Shown: positions 2,527 to 12,360 of the stretch, in pieces
How positions within the stretch are numbered: the first letter of the stretch is position 1
How the letters are laid out: each line of letters starts with the position of its first letter
NCBI GenBank assembly: GCA_002189035.1
Contig: CM007989.1
Location: forward strand, 5,425,001-5,489,000
Source: Utricularia gibba
Lineage: Eukaryota; Streptophyta; Magnoliopsida; Lamiales; Lentibulariaceae
Reading direction: 5' to 3'
DNA length: 64,000 nt
Notes under the pieces: generated by a model
The model's input: the letters and a program-made list of their open reading frames with translations, nothing else
Database searches by the model: none
Told to the model about the DNA's origin: nothing
Position numbers and translations under genes: made by a program

Positions 2527-5500
2527 ATCACATGTCATGGGTACATAGTTAAGAACTTATTTTTATTGTTAAAGAACTTAGCATGTTCCAATTGAATTTT
2601 TAGCATTGTCAACTCAGTATAAATTTCAATACTATAATTCAACATTTAAGATGCCTGTATATTATCCATATATTGAGTAGTTTTTAATCTCAAGTATCCC
2701 AACACACTTTAATTATATTCTAATGAATGTTGGATTGGGAATCAAAGTTTTAGAAGGATAGCTATGAATGAGAAAGAGATCCCAATACCGCAACTCAATG
2801 TTTGTAGTAGCCAACTCAAAGTCCATGTCCATATCTAAAATGGGTTAGCTAATCAACATTTGTATACTACGTATATGGATTATATAAGTCAATACAAATA
2901 TGGCTTTAAGTATAAATTCTAAGCTTTAAAGTAAACGTTTGCGGTGTCTAGACATCGGAATGACAGAATGCCTATTCCAGGCACTACAAATGTTGAATTG
3001 CAATACTTGGATTTTATACTTATTTAAAGCTATCCTCCATCTTTTTGAGTAGTGACTTCATTGATTAGATAAATTGAAATAGTCCTAATAACACCAATTT
3101 TATGGGTGTTTTCACATGTGTTTTTATGGGTGTTTTGTATGTCTAATTATTTCTATTTCTCTATTGTGTTGATAGGAATGTGTTTATTGCGAAAATAAGC
3201 TCAATTGGAAATAATTAAGTCGAAAAATCTCATATTTCGCTCTAGTATTGAAAACATACTTTCCACATTGTAAAGTCAAAGAGGGTAGAAAAGCTAAGAA
3301 AAGTGGCTTTTAGCTGAAAGCATACAACCTCTGAAAACAGATATGGAACAAATATTTATCTTCTAGAACTTTATGGAAAAAACGGAGATACTATTCTTTT
3401 GAGTGGGTAAAAGAAAGGAGGACAAGGAGAGAGAGGGAGAGTTGGAAGTAGAGGAGAATATGGTTCTCCAATGACACCTCTGGTTAGTTTCTAAATCTAT
3501 GTTTAAAGATCATATTTATTATCCAAACTTTCAGTTCCAGCAAATCTATGACTCATGGCAATTGCTTGACATTTTATTTTCATTTTATGTTTTACTATTT
3601 CTAACTTTGAATGTGTTCCTATTTTTGCTGTAGTTGTGAACGAAAAACTTCATGTAAACGTTATTTTAGTTTATGTATCTATTTCTGCTTGAGTTCTTTG
3701 ATATTTAATTCTTGAGTGTAATATGATAACTGTTCACATACTCTTTTCCCTAGCCTTTGGATGTGTTAAAATTGAGTACTCTCTTGAGTGACACAAAATC
3801 TAGATCTTGATGTAATCTTGATTGTATCACTTATCTTTTATATTTTCTCAGCACTTTTTTCTTTTTAAGCACTGAAATCATGGAGTAATAATGATTTACC
3901 AAAAAAATGATGCCATTTTGAGACTCCTCTATTGAAAATCGATTACCAAGAAGAGCAAGAGATTAAAAAAATTTAAATCAGTTTGCATATATGTTGCTTT
4001 TACTTTAGGATCAATCATGTTTGCTATGGGAAACAAAGTCAATGTAATCTCAAAATTTCCTAAACTTTATTAGAGGTGTAATAGGTTTGAACCAAAACCG
4101 CGGTGCGAACCAAAACCACGATTCGAACTAAAACTACAATTCCAATTACAGTTCTGGTTTGGTTCTGGAACCTAAGCATCCATATGGTTTAGATTCTGGG
4201 GTCCATGTGGCTAGTTTCAAACCGAAATTGAAGGGTTCGGAATCGGTTGCACATTTAAACTTTATGACCATAGATTTGATAATATCATAAACCAACTGCA
4301 TACCAAAATATTTTTAAATATTAAAGTTATGACAATCAAAGTATGCAACATAAAATACATAATAGGATACCAAACATTACTGAATAACTTCATATATTAA
4401 TGAAAAATAGCAAATTAGCATATATATTATCATCTATTGGAATATTTGTGTTAGTATGCATTTTCAAAAATACAGAAGCAACTTTTTTATTTGGATGAAA
4501 ATACTGAAATGTAAAAATGTAAAATTCCATCAAAGTGAAAAATATTCTTTTAAAGTTTTAAAAAAAATTTTAACTTACATATTAACACTTAAAGTAAGTC
4601 TTTTTTAATTAAATATTTTCATGCTATCCTACACACATTACACAAAACATACTCCATGTCATTTTCATTTAGTTCATCTTAAACATATAAAAAAAATATG
4701 ATAAATTCATGTTGATCTCAATAAACAATCACCTAAAATCGAATTTATAGAAACCTTAAAATCAAATTTATTATACATATTATTAAGGTTAATGTTAAAG
4801 ATACAATCCATATTGAATAATCAATGTATATAGCGGTAAACTCCATTATTTATGCACCAATATTTGGAGAATCAAAAAGTTCAAATCCAATGATCTTCTT
4901 TTGTATAATTGATTTATAATTAATATAATGAGCAGCCAAAACAAAATAATTCTTTCCATTTATGTCATACCAACGTTTACATGTTAAATCAAAATTTGAT
5001 AGATTGAAAAATAGAGATAAGACAGGTTTTTCTTTCTTCAAATTATTTTATTATCTAATGATTTTTTCTTTGATATTGGAGCACACCTAAGCTATAATCT
5101 AGATTAATAGAAATATTTTATAAATAGATTTTCTACTTCTAGGAAAGGTTTCTCACTAATAATCAATGTCATAATATAATCGACTTAATTACCATTAAGA
5201 TTAAACGAAAAAATAGAAATATTGTCATTCATGAAATTCAAAGTAGACTACCTTAATGAATTGTATACTTTATTTTTATGCTTGTTTCTAATGTGTTATA
5301 TGAACTTTGAAGTAAAATCTCCTTTAATATCATTATATATCGTATTACACTATCTACAATATATTTTTTTTTTGCTTCTTTGCCAAGATTGAAATACTCA
5401 TGTCAATTATGGGTGAAGTCTTTTGTTTTGTTAGGTGAAAGATAAATTTTCATCATCACCCGGGACATAAAGGTAGCACAGTTTGATGTGGTTCCGATAT

Positions 5501-6858: not shown

Positions 6859-7020
6859 CTTAATAAGTAACAAATCTCCTTTCTTCATCTATGTGAACAG
6901 TACTAGAAAGTGAGGTAAGAGAGCCAATGACATTTTTTAAAAAATTCTTCTCAATTAATCTATAAATACAATAACATGGACAAAAGCCAAATGCTCAAGA
7001 AACCTTATAGTATTATATTA

Positions 7021-7270
7021 GGACTACGTTTTGTTTCAATACAAACGTTTGACAAAAAATATACAATTTTATACTAATGTTTGTATAATATGATTTTTGG
7101 TACATAAATTGTCTAGTTTTACAAATTTTACATACAAACATTTTCAAAATTTTTATTTTGAAACAAACGTTTTGAAAAATAGTATTTCCAACACCAATGT
7201 TTTTTGGAAAATTATTTTGGTACATATGTTCGTAAATTATTTTTTTAAATAAAAACAAACCTTTTGACAC
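7021..7270. repeat. Left terminal repeat of MULE-1 with internal subrepeats
   Basis: This arm is built of roughly 35-45-bp units containing ACAAACGTTT, ACCAATGTTTTTTGG or TTGGTACAT-type words. The same words occur in reverse complement at 11020-11274 (for example TTTGGTACAAACGTT and ATACCAACATTTTTT on the minus strand). Both arms share GTTTCAAT about a dozen bases from the outer end. The arms are diverged and the inner boundary is approximate. Confidence 0.65.
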
Positions 7271-7458
7271 CTATATTGTGATAACAAACATTTATTAATG
7301 GGCTTTTATTTAAGTACACATATTTAGCTAACCTATTCCGAAATTGAGGAATACAATGTAATTAGGGTTATAGCTATTGCTAGCCACCACGATGAAATCC
7401 TCTGATTTTTGTTAACCATCGCGATCCACCACAAGCGACCTTGATTATTGACCGTCGA

Positions 7459-8199
7459 TGTTGCGTGTCGTTTCCTCAACAAATTTTATATATGTAAAAT
7501 GTAAAACACAAAAGAGCATAGTACGAGTATCGATCTCAGGGAGTTGTTTTTCGTGAAAAGTGTTTTGTAAGAAACTTCTACAAAATGTCACAGTTTTGTA
7601 AAAGGAGGTTTGTGAAATGTAGAAATAAAAGTTACAACCTAAGTGATGGCCCTTGACTATGGGACGCAATTCCTAGAAATGAGATTCTATCTCCTTCCTT
7701 TGTCCATCCTTGCCTTGGTTTTCACTTATTTCTTTCACTGATTTCATCTTCTTCCTTTGTTCTAAGTTGCTTTTATACCACTCCCCACGTGCATTAACTA
7801 CTTTGAGTCCCCTTCCCATCATTCCTTCTGTCTTGCATGTACCACCAAATTTCCTTTGCGTGCAAGTTAACGTCTAATCATTTCTACAGACGCTGACATG
7901 CAGTAAGTCAAAAGCTTTGACCAGTGTCAGTCTTCTGCCCACAATTATTCCAAGTCACGTAAAAGGCACAAAAAGTCAAATTTTGACCTCTTGCATTACT
8001 CCTGCAATACTCCACGACAGTCTCCTAACATGTCTTGGTCAAATTGCACGAAAAAAGACAAAAAATATATACAAAATAGGAAAATAGGATTTTTCTAAGA
8101 AAATACAATATTTATCAATATAAATCCTAAATTGGGCAACTTAACACTAGATTAATACATAATAATACCTAATAATAAACTAGAAAATAACACTTAACA
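7459..8199. mobile_element. Solo LTR of a second family (741 bp), nested in MULE-1
   Basis: It starts TGTTGCGTG and ends CACTTAACA, with TGTT/AACA inverted ends. Flanking pentamers are GTCGA (7454-7458) and GTCGC (8200-8204), a 4/5 match for a 5-bp target duplication. It contains the word GTATCGATCTCAGGGAG near its start, typical of long LTRs of plant Ty3 elements. No internal retroelement sequence is attached. It lies upstream of the MULE-1 transposase, so it inserted after the MULE arrived. Confidence 0.75.
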
Positions 8200-8399
8200 G
8201 TCGCCCTCTTGACCCACACGATCATCCTTGCTTTGTAGCCCGTCGCCCAATTGCGACTCTGAGTCGGTGTTCTCAGATTCTGGGTTTTATTGCTGACGAT
8301 TTTAGATTCATCTTCTTATATCATTCTTCTTTGAATTGTAAGTTTACTGGACAGATGTAGAATTGTATCGGTTTAATTTGTTGTAGCTTTTCAATTGAT

Positions 8400-8642
8400 T
8401 TGGTACCACAGGTTCTAACCATGAGTGATTCGAATACGGAATCATACGTTTATTCAGAGGAGGAATTTCAATATGAATCTAGTGGGTTGCAACCTCTGTG
8501 CTCGTTCGATGTTGAACTGATGTCTAAAATTGAGTGGAAGGAAGAATGCATACTTCAAGCACATGAGGCTACCACTCAAGACATTGAGTTATATGATCAC
8601 GAGGATGAAGAGATTATATATTATAACTCGAAACAAGGATGA
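8400..8642 (+). pseudogene. MULE-1 transposase N-terminal exon remnant
   Basis: An 80-codon open stretch, with a likely start at the ATG at 8421 (MSDSNTESYVYSEEEFQYE). It is acidic and serine/glutamate-rich, as is common at the N-terminus of MuDR-like proteins, and ends at a stop 250 bp before the recognisable transposase domain. It may be a first exon, since GGTAAATC follows the stop, or a truncated leader. No catalytic residues lie here. The assignment rests on position within MULE-1 more than on sequence similarity. Confidence 0.5.
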
Positions 8643-8889
8643 AAACGATTAAATCTTAGGTAAATCCTAAATTATTTTTTTATATAAATAATAGTTAGGG
8701 TTAATCTCTAATTATTTTTTTGAGTATCAATAATTCTTTGTATTTAATTTCTAGATGTAATTGGTATGTGTTATATTTATAATTCTTATGAGTTAACTTA
8801 TAATGCGTATAAGTTGGTTCTTATGTGTATTTATCTAATGTTTCTATTTATTATTCATAAAAGTCTACTTCTTACTACCTAGGAAAGGA

Positions 8890-9516
8890 ATGTTATTTGG
8901 TAGCAAAATAGCAGCACGGGATGCTACCATTGCTTATTGTATTCAGGAATAGATTCAGTGGAAATTTAAGAAAAATGACAACAGATACATTTGTGTTGTA
9001 TGTAAAGGGGATCGGGACGAAAGATGTAGTTGGGCTATAACCATCTCAAGTCCCTGTCCAGATTTAGATTGACAAGTATCTAAGTATTATAGTGAATACT
9101 GTAGTTCATGTGACAGAGAGTTGACTGAAAATAAGTCTTTAAAACTCAAGCATCTAGTGAGATTCTTTGAAGATAAGTTATTAGGTGAGCCAGACATCAC
9201 CACACGAGATTTTAGGCATTACATCAACCTAACAACATCCATGTGGGTGGATCCTATGCAAGCATATGTGGCTCGGAAGATGGTATTGGGAGATAGTGAT
9301 GGGAAGCTAGCAATGTAATACTTGATGATTGGTCAGTATTGTGCACAGTTAGTTCTATCCAATCCTGGAACCACTATTGACCTAGTCCTCTCACCTCTGG
9401 ACATCAACAACACTTATCGACGATTTGAAAAACTTTACATTTGTTTGGATGCCTGTAAAACGGGTTGGAGGCATTGTCACCATTTTTTGGTGTTGATGGT
9501 TGTCATGCTAAGGTAG
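8890..9516 (+). pseudogene. MuDR-type transposase, N-terminal and pre-catalytic region (broken)
   Basis: Consecutive frame pieces follow the plant MuDR order: IQWKFKKNDNRYICVVCKGD and CSWAITISSPCPDLD (the C..C/W DNA-binding zone) at 8890-9075, then KHLVRFFEDKLLGEPDITTR and MWVDPMQAYVARKMVLGD at 9121-9318, then IGQYCAQLVLSNPGTTIDLV and RRFEKLYICLDACKTGW at 9322-9470. Stops at 8950, 9071 and 9316 interrupt it. Just after GW..., where family members have the first catalytic Asp in a GVDGCH context, the sequence reads HFLVLMVVMLR, so the frame is shifted. The rest of the DDE core is missing; the Ulp1-like segment follows. Dead copy. Confidence 0.85.
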
Positions 9517-9712
9517 AGGGGGTGGTCAGATTCCACGAGTGAAATCAAGACAAGTGGTTTGTTGGTGTTGATGATTTAGTTTGTTGAAATCAGGGTCCAT
9601 AAGTGAAACAAGAGAAGGCTTTGATCGGGGAGAGTTCTCACCCCCTACAATGGCAAGATAGTGGTTTGTCAATGTCCAAAATGTCATTCTTTCATCTAAC
9701 AATTCCACTATT

Positions 9713-10461
9713 GTGAACGATGGTGTATCAAAACAAAAGACGAAGGATTGCAAGAAAAAGAAGCGTCTTCCTGGCTTTCGTAAGTATGGAATTCTTAGTG
9801 ACTTTGATTTTACAGAAGTGTTACGTCATATTAGAGGTGTGATTCTGGAAGAGCAACTGGATATTTTTTATTTCATTGACCCTCTATATTTCAATAAGTG
9901 GATTGGTAATGAGGAGACAGTTCGTAGAATATTTCAATAAGTGGATTGCTATATTTTTTTACATACAATGTGTTTAACTTGTTATGTTCTACAACTAGCG
10001 GTCATTGGGTGGTGACGATATGCTGTAATTTTGGAGACGCTCACAATAGAATGATCATTGTCTTAGATTCTTTGAGTGCACGAGATGCACTATGTCCAAC
10101 GAAAAAAGATTTGTATAGGTTCTAGAAATTATTATACTATATTAATAAATAAATTAGCTATGACTAATTCACTACTTTATTTGTACAGGTATCTGAAATA
10201 CATGCTAGGGTATGTGGCACCGTCTTTCGATGTTAACGAGTTGGATTCTGTGCCTATTCACTTTCCTGAGGTACACACACTACAACCTCAATAAATAGTA
10301 TAGCACGAACACTTATAATAAATTGACTTTTAAAGTTATTATTTTTATAGATTCCACTACAAACTGAACCAACTAAATGCAGGTTATATGCTTTATATTC
10401 GGTGAGGCTTCTCATGCAGAATGTACCGCTAGTTTTCTTTCCTTCTGAGTATCCATCATTT
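9713..10461 (+). pseudogene. Ulp1-like (C48) cysteine protease region of MULE-1, broken
   Basis: Ulp1 proteases cleave SUMO from proteins using a His-Asp-Cys triad with a Gln for the oxyanion hole. Here 9790-9940 reads GVILEEQLDIFYFIDPLYFN, fitting the N-terminal helix of the domain. At 10002-10074 comes SGHWVVTICCNFGDAHNR...VLDSL, the His-Trp-Val and VLDS (Asp) motifs. At 10196-10294 there is YMLGYVAPSFDVNELDSVPI, and at 10351-10461 IPLQTEPTKCRLYALYSVRL, matching Q-x5-C-x-x-Y/F; the usual DCG is KCR. The order His, Asp, Gln, Cys is right, but stops and shifts separate the pieces, and an intron may lie between 10295 and 10350. Nearest known context: MULEs carrying ULP genes. Confidence 0.75.
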
Positions 10462-11019
10462 GTAAGTCTCTAATCATTCAAAGTTGTTACTAACTTTGGC
10501 CATTTTGTAGCCTACAAGAAGTTGGTATACGAGTTATGATGTGTTACAGTTTGCTCCAATATGTGGATTGTCAAATGTTATGATGGGTGGACGTCAGCGA
10601 TTCCCTTAAATCGAATACATATAGCATGAGAGGATGAACTGGTTAGATGGGTGTAGGTGATTCCTAAACTTCAATAGCTATATCGTTGTTTCTTTTGGTT
10701 AGCATGCTTATAGTTTAGTTTACTTTGATGGATAAGATAATGTTTAAACATTTCAATGATTCCAAAATGATGTTTAAATATCTAATATTTAGTTTTCATT
10801 GTGTCTAAATCAATAGGAATATTTAATTAACGGCATGTATCATTTTATAAAAAAAGTGATTGGTCAACTTAAAATTAATGAGTTAGAAAACATGAAAAAC
10901 AAAAAGACACATATACCTATATTTTTCTAATAATTTTTAATATATATTTTAATATATTAACTATTTTTAATATATTTTGTTCAAAATCATAGTTTACAAT
11001 AAATGTATATATCAAAAAG

Positions 11020-11274
11020 TATGTGTGAAAAAACGTTTGTATTGTTTTTTAATTTTTCTAAACAACGTATATATCTAAACAATGTTTTAAAAAATGTTGG
11101 TATTTGAAAAATAACATAATATTTAACGTTTGTACCAAAATGATGTTTTTTGAAACATTTGTATTGAATTTAAATAAAAACTGAAACGCTTATACCACAA
11201 AATTATTTTTGAAAACATGTGTATCAAATTATAAGCAACCTTTGAAATGTTCTCATTGAAACATATTTTTTCCC
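11020..11274. repeat. Right terminal repeat of MULE-1 with internal subrepeats
   Basis: Reverse-complement counterpart of 7021-7270, with several units of AACGTTTGTACC, AAAATGTTGGTAT and TTTGAAACATTTGTATTG type. It ends CCC at 11274, just before the TATTATAAT that resembles the left flank. Units are diverged, so alignment by eye is approximate. Confidence 0.62.
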
Positions 11275-11283
11275 TATTATAAT

Positions 11284-12360
11284 AATTCATATGGGTCACA
11301 CACAATTTCAAAAAAAATTCTAATAGGCAAATGTTCTAGACTCAATCCATCTAATCTATAAGTCAGATTCATAACCATCAAACATGGATCTGTCCCATAC
11401 CTATTTTCTATGAGTACAGGTCACTGTTCAAACTCATTATGAGTTAACACCTATTGCATATTTGGATCGATTTGTAATCTTACTCAGTTGATACGACATT
11501 CTAATCAATAAGTGATTGGCATTTTAGTTCAAAAGAAGCAATTCTTTAAGAAAAAGTTGGCCTTTAAGAATTGAAAATCCTTACAATCCAAACTATGAAA
11601 TGGTACCACACTCATAGAATCAAGAAAGGAATTGGAAATGATAAACTACACACTAGACACCACAAACAAAGATCGATAAGTCTAAAGTTCTATTAGAACA
11701 CAAAGAAGAAGCATTGTTCTCAAAAGTCATTACAATCAAAATTGTTTTAAATAAGAGTGAGTCTCTTCTTATATAGATGAAGTATTGATCTTACTTAAAA
11801 GAAAAGTAGTAATAATGTACTTGGGAGTGATAAGACTATTCTACTCAAGTTGCTCCATTTTGAGAAGATTGAATTTTATGTCAAATACCTTATGACTTCG
11901 TTGATTGGCCCATAGCTTCTTAAGTACATCTTGATTTATTATTACTCTTGATCTAGTGATTAGTTCAAATGAAATCAATGGAGAATTATTGATCTTTTGT
12001 CCTTTATTTTTATTGTGATCATGTGTAATATTCATGAAGTTATCACTAGCTCTATTCACTTATGTTACCAACATTGCAATCAAATTTGAACAAACCTACT
12101 ATTGACGTTTACAATTGGTGATCGTTCAAAATCTAAATCTCATTTTTTAATCAAATTATAAGTATTGTAATTGAAATGTTTTTTTATTAAATTTAGGATT
12201 TAGAAATTTTTTTTATAACTATTCCTGGTTTTTAAGTTTTGTAAGCTTTTTCATTATTAAGTATTAGTACGAAACTGATTCATGAGGTTTAATGAAGAAT
12301 TTGACATCTAAATAAAACAAATTTGAATTTTAGTCAAATATGGTTAAAAAAAATAAAACC
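11284..12360. other. Intergenic, AT-rich; nothing recognised
   Basis: No coding similarity was found. The 72-codon frame on the minus strand (12059-11841) has no recognisable motif. The higher-GC sequence from about 12360 marks the upstream region of the CID gene. Confidence 0.6.

Follow-up and report, generated by a model that had tools for sequence, protein, structure and literature searches.

The segment between positions 7021 and 11274 of the window, the 64,000-nucleotide stretch of Utricularia gibba DNA analysed here, is very probably a dead copy of a MuDR-type Mutator-like (MULE) family with terminal inverted repeats (TIRs), whose better copies encode a transposase and a Ulp1 protease that would act on the element's arrayed ends in the manner proposed below. 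It corresponds to C1:5432021-5436274 in the genome, where the family has at least 20 further copies. The sequence-only reading of this segment, a MULE carrying a Ulp1-type protease between arms built of subrepeats, is supported by the ends, target-site duplications (TSDs) and coding regions of these sibling copies. The features of the window copy are collected in Table 1.

Table 1. Features of the MULE copy and of its immediate flanks (positions in the window)
Feature	Position	Strand	Remarks
Left TSD, tattatatta	7011-7020	.	9/10 match to right; siblings 10/10
Left terminal arm, GGACTACGTTTTGTTTCAATACAAACG...	7021-7330	+	~9 motif sites every ~30 bp; hits start at 7038, 7070, 7131, 7160, 7190, 7219, 7252, 7281
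Solo LTR, internally deleted	7458-8199	+	742 bp; TG...CA ends, GTCG flanks; absent from all siblings; high-copy LTR sequence
Remnant of transposase N-terminal exon (MSDSNTESYVYSEEEFQYES...)	8422-8642	+	Sequence comparison
Transposase remnant, N-terminal DNA-binding part to start of MULE domain	8866-9532	+	Internal stops; 79% to L018; alignment to L017/L018/L019
Deletion junction	9533-9574	+	42 bp vs ~1.6 kb in siblings, which holds DDE core, SWIM and zinc knuckle
Ulp1-like exon 1 remnant	9575-9935	+	Stop and truncated 3' end; copy comparison
Deletion junction with 23-bp filler copying 9886-9908	9929-9951	+	Exon 1/intron 1 shortened by ~60 bp; direct repeat and copy alignment
Ulp1 exon 2, GHWVV...VLDSL (catalytic-set His, Asp)	10000-10119	+	Splicing and relatives
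Ulp1 exon 3	10190-10271	+	Splicing
Ulp1 exon 4, IPLQTEPTKCRLYALYS... (catalytic-set Gln, Cys)	10352-10462	+	Splicing and relatives
Ulp1 exon 5, C-terminal end	10511-10609	+	Splicing and relatives
Right terminal arm, inverted motif array	10871-11274	-	~195 bp missing next to 10872 vs siblings
Right-arm sites, inner four	11088-11104, 11059-11075, 11027-11043, 10997-11013	-	Motif scan
Right-arm sites, outer five	11255-11271, 11209-11225, 11180-11196, 11149-11165, 11120-11136	-	Motif scan
Right TSD, tattataata	11275-11284	.	9/10 match to left

Ends of the element and their phased arrays

Each arm of the window copy matches 26 places in the genome, and the 25 regions of the same genome that were retrieved using both arms served as the comparison set. 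The ends read from the window hold in these relatives, as the termini of L013-L029 in the copy alignment are, to within a few bases, the equivalents of 7021 and 11274; copies open with GGGCTACGTTTTGTTTCAATACAAACG and close with ...GTATTTTTCCCC. Their length ranges from ~0.9 kb in gene-less copies (L014, L020, L021 and L024) up to ~5.0-5.3 kb (L017, L018 and L019, plus L023 as judged from its left part). The flank duplication expected at each copy was found at about half of those measured, and it is 10 bp long, not 9 as first read, a length within the ~8-11 bp of MULEs. Left and right flanks agree at 9-10 of 10 positions in 7 of 14 copies, six siblings carry perfect 10-bp TSDs (e.g., ctttaattta in L013), and the TSD of L029 also reaches 10/10 once its right end is shifted by 1 bp, whereas left and right flanks mixed between copies agree at 8/10 or fewer in all 182 comparisons. 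The right ends of L031 (C414:2959193) and L032 (C439:24862) have identical flanking sequence, so that in the assembly C439 may represent an allele or a duplicate of part of C414. On C375, at ~161-313 kb (L016, L028, L033 and L034), at least five arm matches lie within ~150 kb and form a nest of elements; L033 additionally holds ULP exons from another MULE family.

The arms are degenerate terminal inverted repeats, alike at ~70-85% over short arms, and they consist of repeated short units, as in foldback-type MULEs with long TIRs of subrepeats. That they are built of short units had been read from the window alone, and this can now be sharpened to a RATACAAACGTTT-like motif recurring every ~30 bp, with spacings that alternate between 29 and 32, and matched 8-10 times per arm. 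The right arms of L016, L018 and L019 served to train a 17-position motif (RATACAAACGTTTNNAA-like), with which other arms were then scanned. The left arm of the window copy holds 8 matches against 0.75 expected (200 simulations, maximum 4), and its right arm holds 10 against an expectation of 0.5-1 per arm; the training arms are homologues of this right arm, so that the left arm and the relatives test the motif more independently. The motif scan found no match on the opposite strand in either arm of the window copy, and the motif register of the two arms agrees to 1-2 bp. Tandem Repeats Finder did not report the array in the arms. An exact search for two sites at the array spacing returned 10 places in 100 Mb, and none for the reversed control; most of them fall in arms already known, and two outside the fetched copies (C304:292994-293032 and C1:4900341-4900379) probably belong to further related elements. 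The same spacing recurs in one arm each of the sister families L047 and L052 and of the remote L055. In L055, a family at ~28-38% transposase identity, the phased motif lies at the 3' end (4928-5004), so that the array probably predates the window family.

It could be argued that the arrays are the targets of an element-coded, VANC-like anti-silencing protein, instead of or besides being transposase sites. In Arabidopsis VANDAL elements, VANC does target short motifs within noncoding regions made of tandem repeats (PMC5735166), some VANDALs carry a VANC with a Ulp1 domain (PMC13317346), and the CpGs of the arms are concentrated in the motif: its ACGTT core holds nearly all of them in the youngest copies (14/16 in L014, 13/14 in L013), and the cores of the old window copy mostly read TG or CA instead of CG. 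However, full-length copies yielded no third gene, and arrays that lie at the very ends, with one register for the two arms, suit transposase binding at least equally well. No VANC-like gene was identified in the window family, and a genome search for DUF1985 (PF09331) gave no match, which is uninformative because its controls were equally silent. This explanation is considered rather unlikely, and the arrays are preferentially read as sites for the transposase.

Transposase and protease as linked genes

The MULE transposase domain (PF10551), deleted in the window copy, scores 36.7 bits in sibling L018 against the Pfam cut-off of 27.6, and two further domains of sibling proteins stay under their curated cut-offs (DBD_Tnp_Mut, 20.0 vs 25; SWIM, 19.4 vs 19.6). 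Downstream of the transposase and on the same strand lies the Ulp1/C48 gene, with five exons and GT-AG introns, in frame over the four introns. Peptidase_C48 (PF02902) exceeds the gathering score in siblings L019 and L029, at 33.4 and 39.0 bits; the spliced protease of the window copy has no Pfam match. The 9713-10461 translation proposed as a query for other copies has to be assembled by splicing and is not a single frame. The order of the protease motifs noticed there stands, with His (GHWVV), Asp (VLDSL) and Q-x5-C (LQTEPTKC) spread over exons and kept in the window copy and most relatives. A search against solved structures returned SENP1 alone, at a non-significant E = 0.4, with the D and Q/C regions aligned. 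An extra exon, whose protein sequence TQEPSTGTEPKVTSDQ by eye resembles THEPSKGTTSKVTTDQ of the sister family, separates the zinc-knuckle exon from ULP exon 1, and the sister family does not conserve the ATG of ULP exon 1; on these grounds transposase and protease are predicted to form one fused protein, a prediction that stops short of the junction before ULP exon 1.

Whether protease and transposase always travel together, as the sequence-only reading asked, depends on the level considered: they do not in individual copies, where internal deletions remove either or both, and they do among families. Genome relatives found by single-protein searches have the transposase followed by the ULP on one strand in L047, L048, L049, L051, L052/L053, L054, L055 and L056, while no transposase was found in 6.5 kb at L050. 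Gene order and strand are unchanged in L054, L055 and L056, at 25-40% transposase identity, and exon 4 spans exactly 37 codons in L018, L047, L054, L055 and L056, its splice boundaries matching throughout. The identities of the two proteins are correlated (r = 0.94, for 15 non-independent pairs). Selection was read from dN/dS between families, in place of a within-family test of third-position excess at shared sites, which gave no signal (37, 25 and 19 informative sites at positions 1, 2 and 3), probably because the copies are close and mostly dead. Against sister family L047, dN/dS is 0.15-0.19 for the ULP and 0.06-0.12 for the transposase, approximate values with dS near saturation (1.3-2.5); the ULP value of ~0.15 indicates that the protease was under purifying selection. 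Within the family the ratio is 0.5-1.4, as expected of dead copies.

An alternative is that the protease is a passenger without function for the element, brought in when a host ULP gene was recently and repeatedly transduplicated. In grapevine, the ULP-MULE families are not monophyletic, for which the authors favoured repeated capture over the alternative of frequent loss (PMC2528002); genomic DNA captured repeatedly would also bring the same introns each time, and a subfamily with Arg after the active-site Cys (the window copy, L028 and L049) spread nonetheless. The between-family dN/dS of the ULP weakens this explanation, as do the order, strand and exon boundaries that persist in five families and the parallel increase of ULP and transposase identities, so that it appears improbable. 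The five diverged transposase-ULP lineages, with unchanged gene order and exon boundaries and with purifying selection between two of them, argue for the protease as an old, maintained and selected partner of the transposase.

The active-site context of the family is TECG (ACT GAA TGT GGG), and that of the window copy is TKCR (ACT AAA TGC AGG). The KCR noticed in the window copy is thus correct, but the context from which it departs is ECG and not DCG: the residue before Cys is E in most relatives, and D, judging from these sequences, is not the ground state of this lineage. Since the Arg is common to L028 and L049, which group with the window copy with modest support (0.93 and 0.78), the G-to-R change is probably older than the window insertion and a feature of a subfamily. 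The Lys is found as well in L049, L050 and the remote family L054, which makes it a probable recurrent G-to-A change, or decay.

Decay of the window copy

The window copy is dead and internally deleted, and both of its proteins are lost. The DDE core of its transposase had been described as largely gone, and the siblings show the extent of this loss at the first junction of Table 1; between the transposase exon remnants, at 8758-8815, there is a 21-bp unit repeated 2.7 times. At the second junction the ~60 bp are lost at 9935-9950, and the 23-bp stretch there resembles repair filler. Stops and gaps interrupt the protease frame. The interval 7021-11274 does contain one MULE, but ~0.74 kb of it, missed in the sequence-only reading, is a solo LTR that was inserted later and is foreign to the MULE, internally deleted relative to other copies of its high-copy LTR retroelement. 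Private changes are similarly dense in the ULP gene (6.4%), in 3' noncoding sequence (8.1%) and in the arms (4.3-6.7%), and the protease appears to have been decaying neutrally since both proteins were lost. C>T and G>A account for 101 of the 188 private changes, a predominance expected of methylated dead DNA. That this is instead a host gene region, a domesticated ULP between unrelated repeats with no transposon, has virtually no chance of being right: the window copy alone has weak arms and no Pfam match, but its protease frame is broken, and the reading was rejected since over 20 copies share the ends and TSDs.

Proposed mechanism and known systems

The mechanism proposed here is that the transposase, probably as one spliced protein with the protease, would bind the ~30-bp spaced arrays at both ends, by analogy with other MULEs, and that once bound it would pair the ends, and cut and paste the element. 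The gene-less copies of ~0.9 kb would be mobilised in trans via the same arms. The protease would be retained since it is useful to the element, its most likely role being to strip SUMO or a SUMO-like tag from the transposase or from host silencing proteins at the element. A bolder version, to which little credence is given, has the fused transposase-Ulp1 dock at each end on some nine palindromic sites that are centred on a CpG (AACGTT core, ~30-bp phase), thereby bringing the SUMO protease to the element's own ends, with CpG methylation switching the docking; if true, it would be a built-in methylation-gated anti-silencing device.

MULEs carrying a ULP have been described in Arabidopsis, melon, rice and grapevine (PMC2528002, PMC6117577, PMC13317346). 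In melon, rice and grapevine, the MULEs with a ULP1 (van Leeuwen et al. 2007, as cited; Benjak et al. 2008, PMC2528002) share with the window family a MuDR-like transposase with Ulp1/C48 downstream; the orientation is direct in some families, some have TIRs, and the grapevine TSD is given as always 9 bp, against 10 bp here. The available text does not mention phased ~30-bp arrays as arms. The KAONASHI (KI) MULEs of Arabidopsis (Hoen et al. 2006, as cited in PMC2528002 and PMC6117577) are likewise multicopy with a C48 ULP-like gene, but they are given in PMC2528002 as non-TIR elements with the ULP in reverse to mudrA, whereas the window family has inverted arms and both genes in the same orientation, and is not a KAONASHI family. 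In VANDAL elements with VANC (PMC5735166, PMC10398659) short motif arrays also occupy noncoding parts of the MULE, with the motif YAGTATTAY or AGTTGTCC instead of the AACGTT core. Muta1 of Aedes aegypti (PMC5225508), an active MULE with foldback-type TIRs, has arms of 9 short repeats at fixed spacing, although its units are of 12 bp with 3-4 bp spacers, as opposed to a ~17-bp motif every ~30 bp here, and no protease is described in the available text.

Both ULP-bearing MULEs and subrepeat-built MULE ends have therefore been described already, and what is added is their combination, the phasing of both arms and the selection result. The phased end arrays offer concrete sites for binding and methylation tests. 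As to why MULEs retain a ULP-like gene, the grapevine work (PMC2528002) left room for both repeated capture and frequent loss and leaned towards the former, as against the co-descent and purifying selection in the families of this genome, where the data favour an ancient, maintained partner gene.
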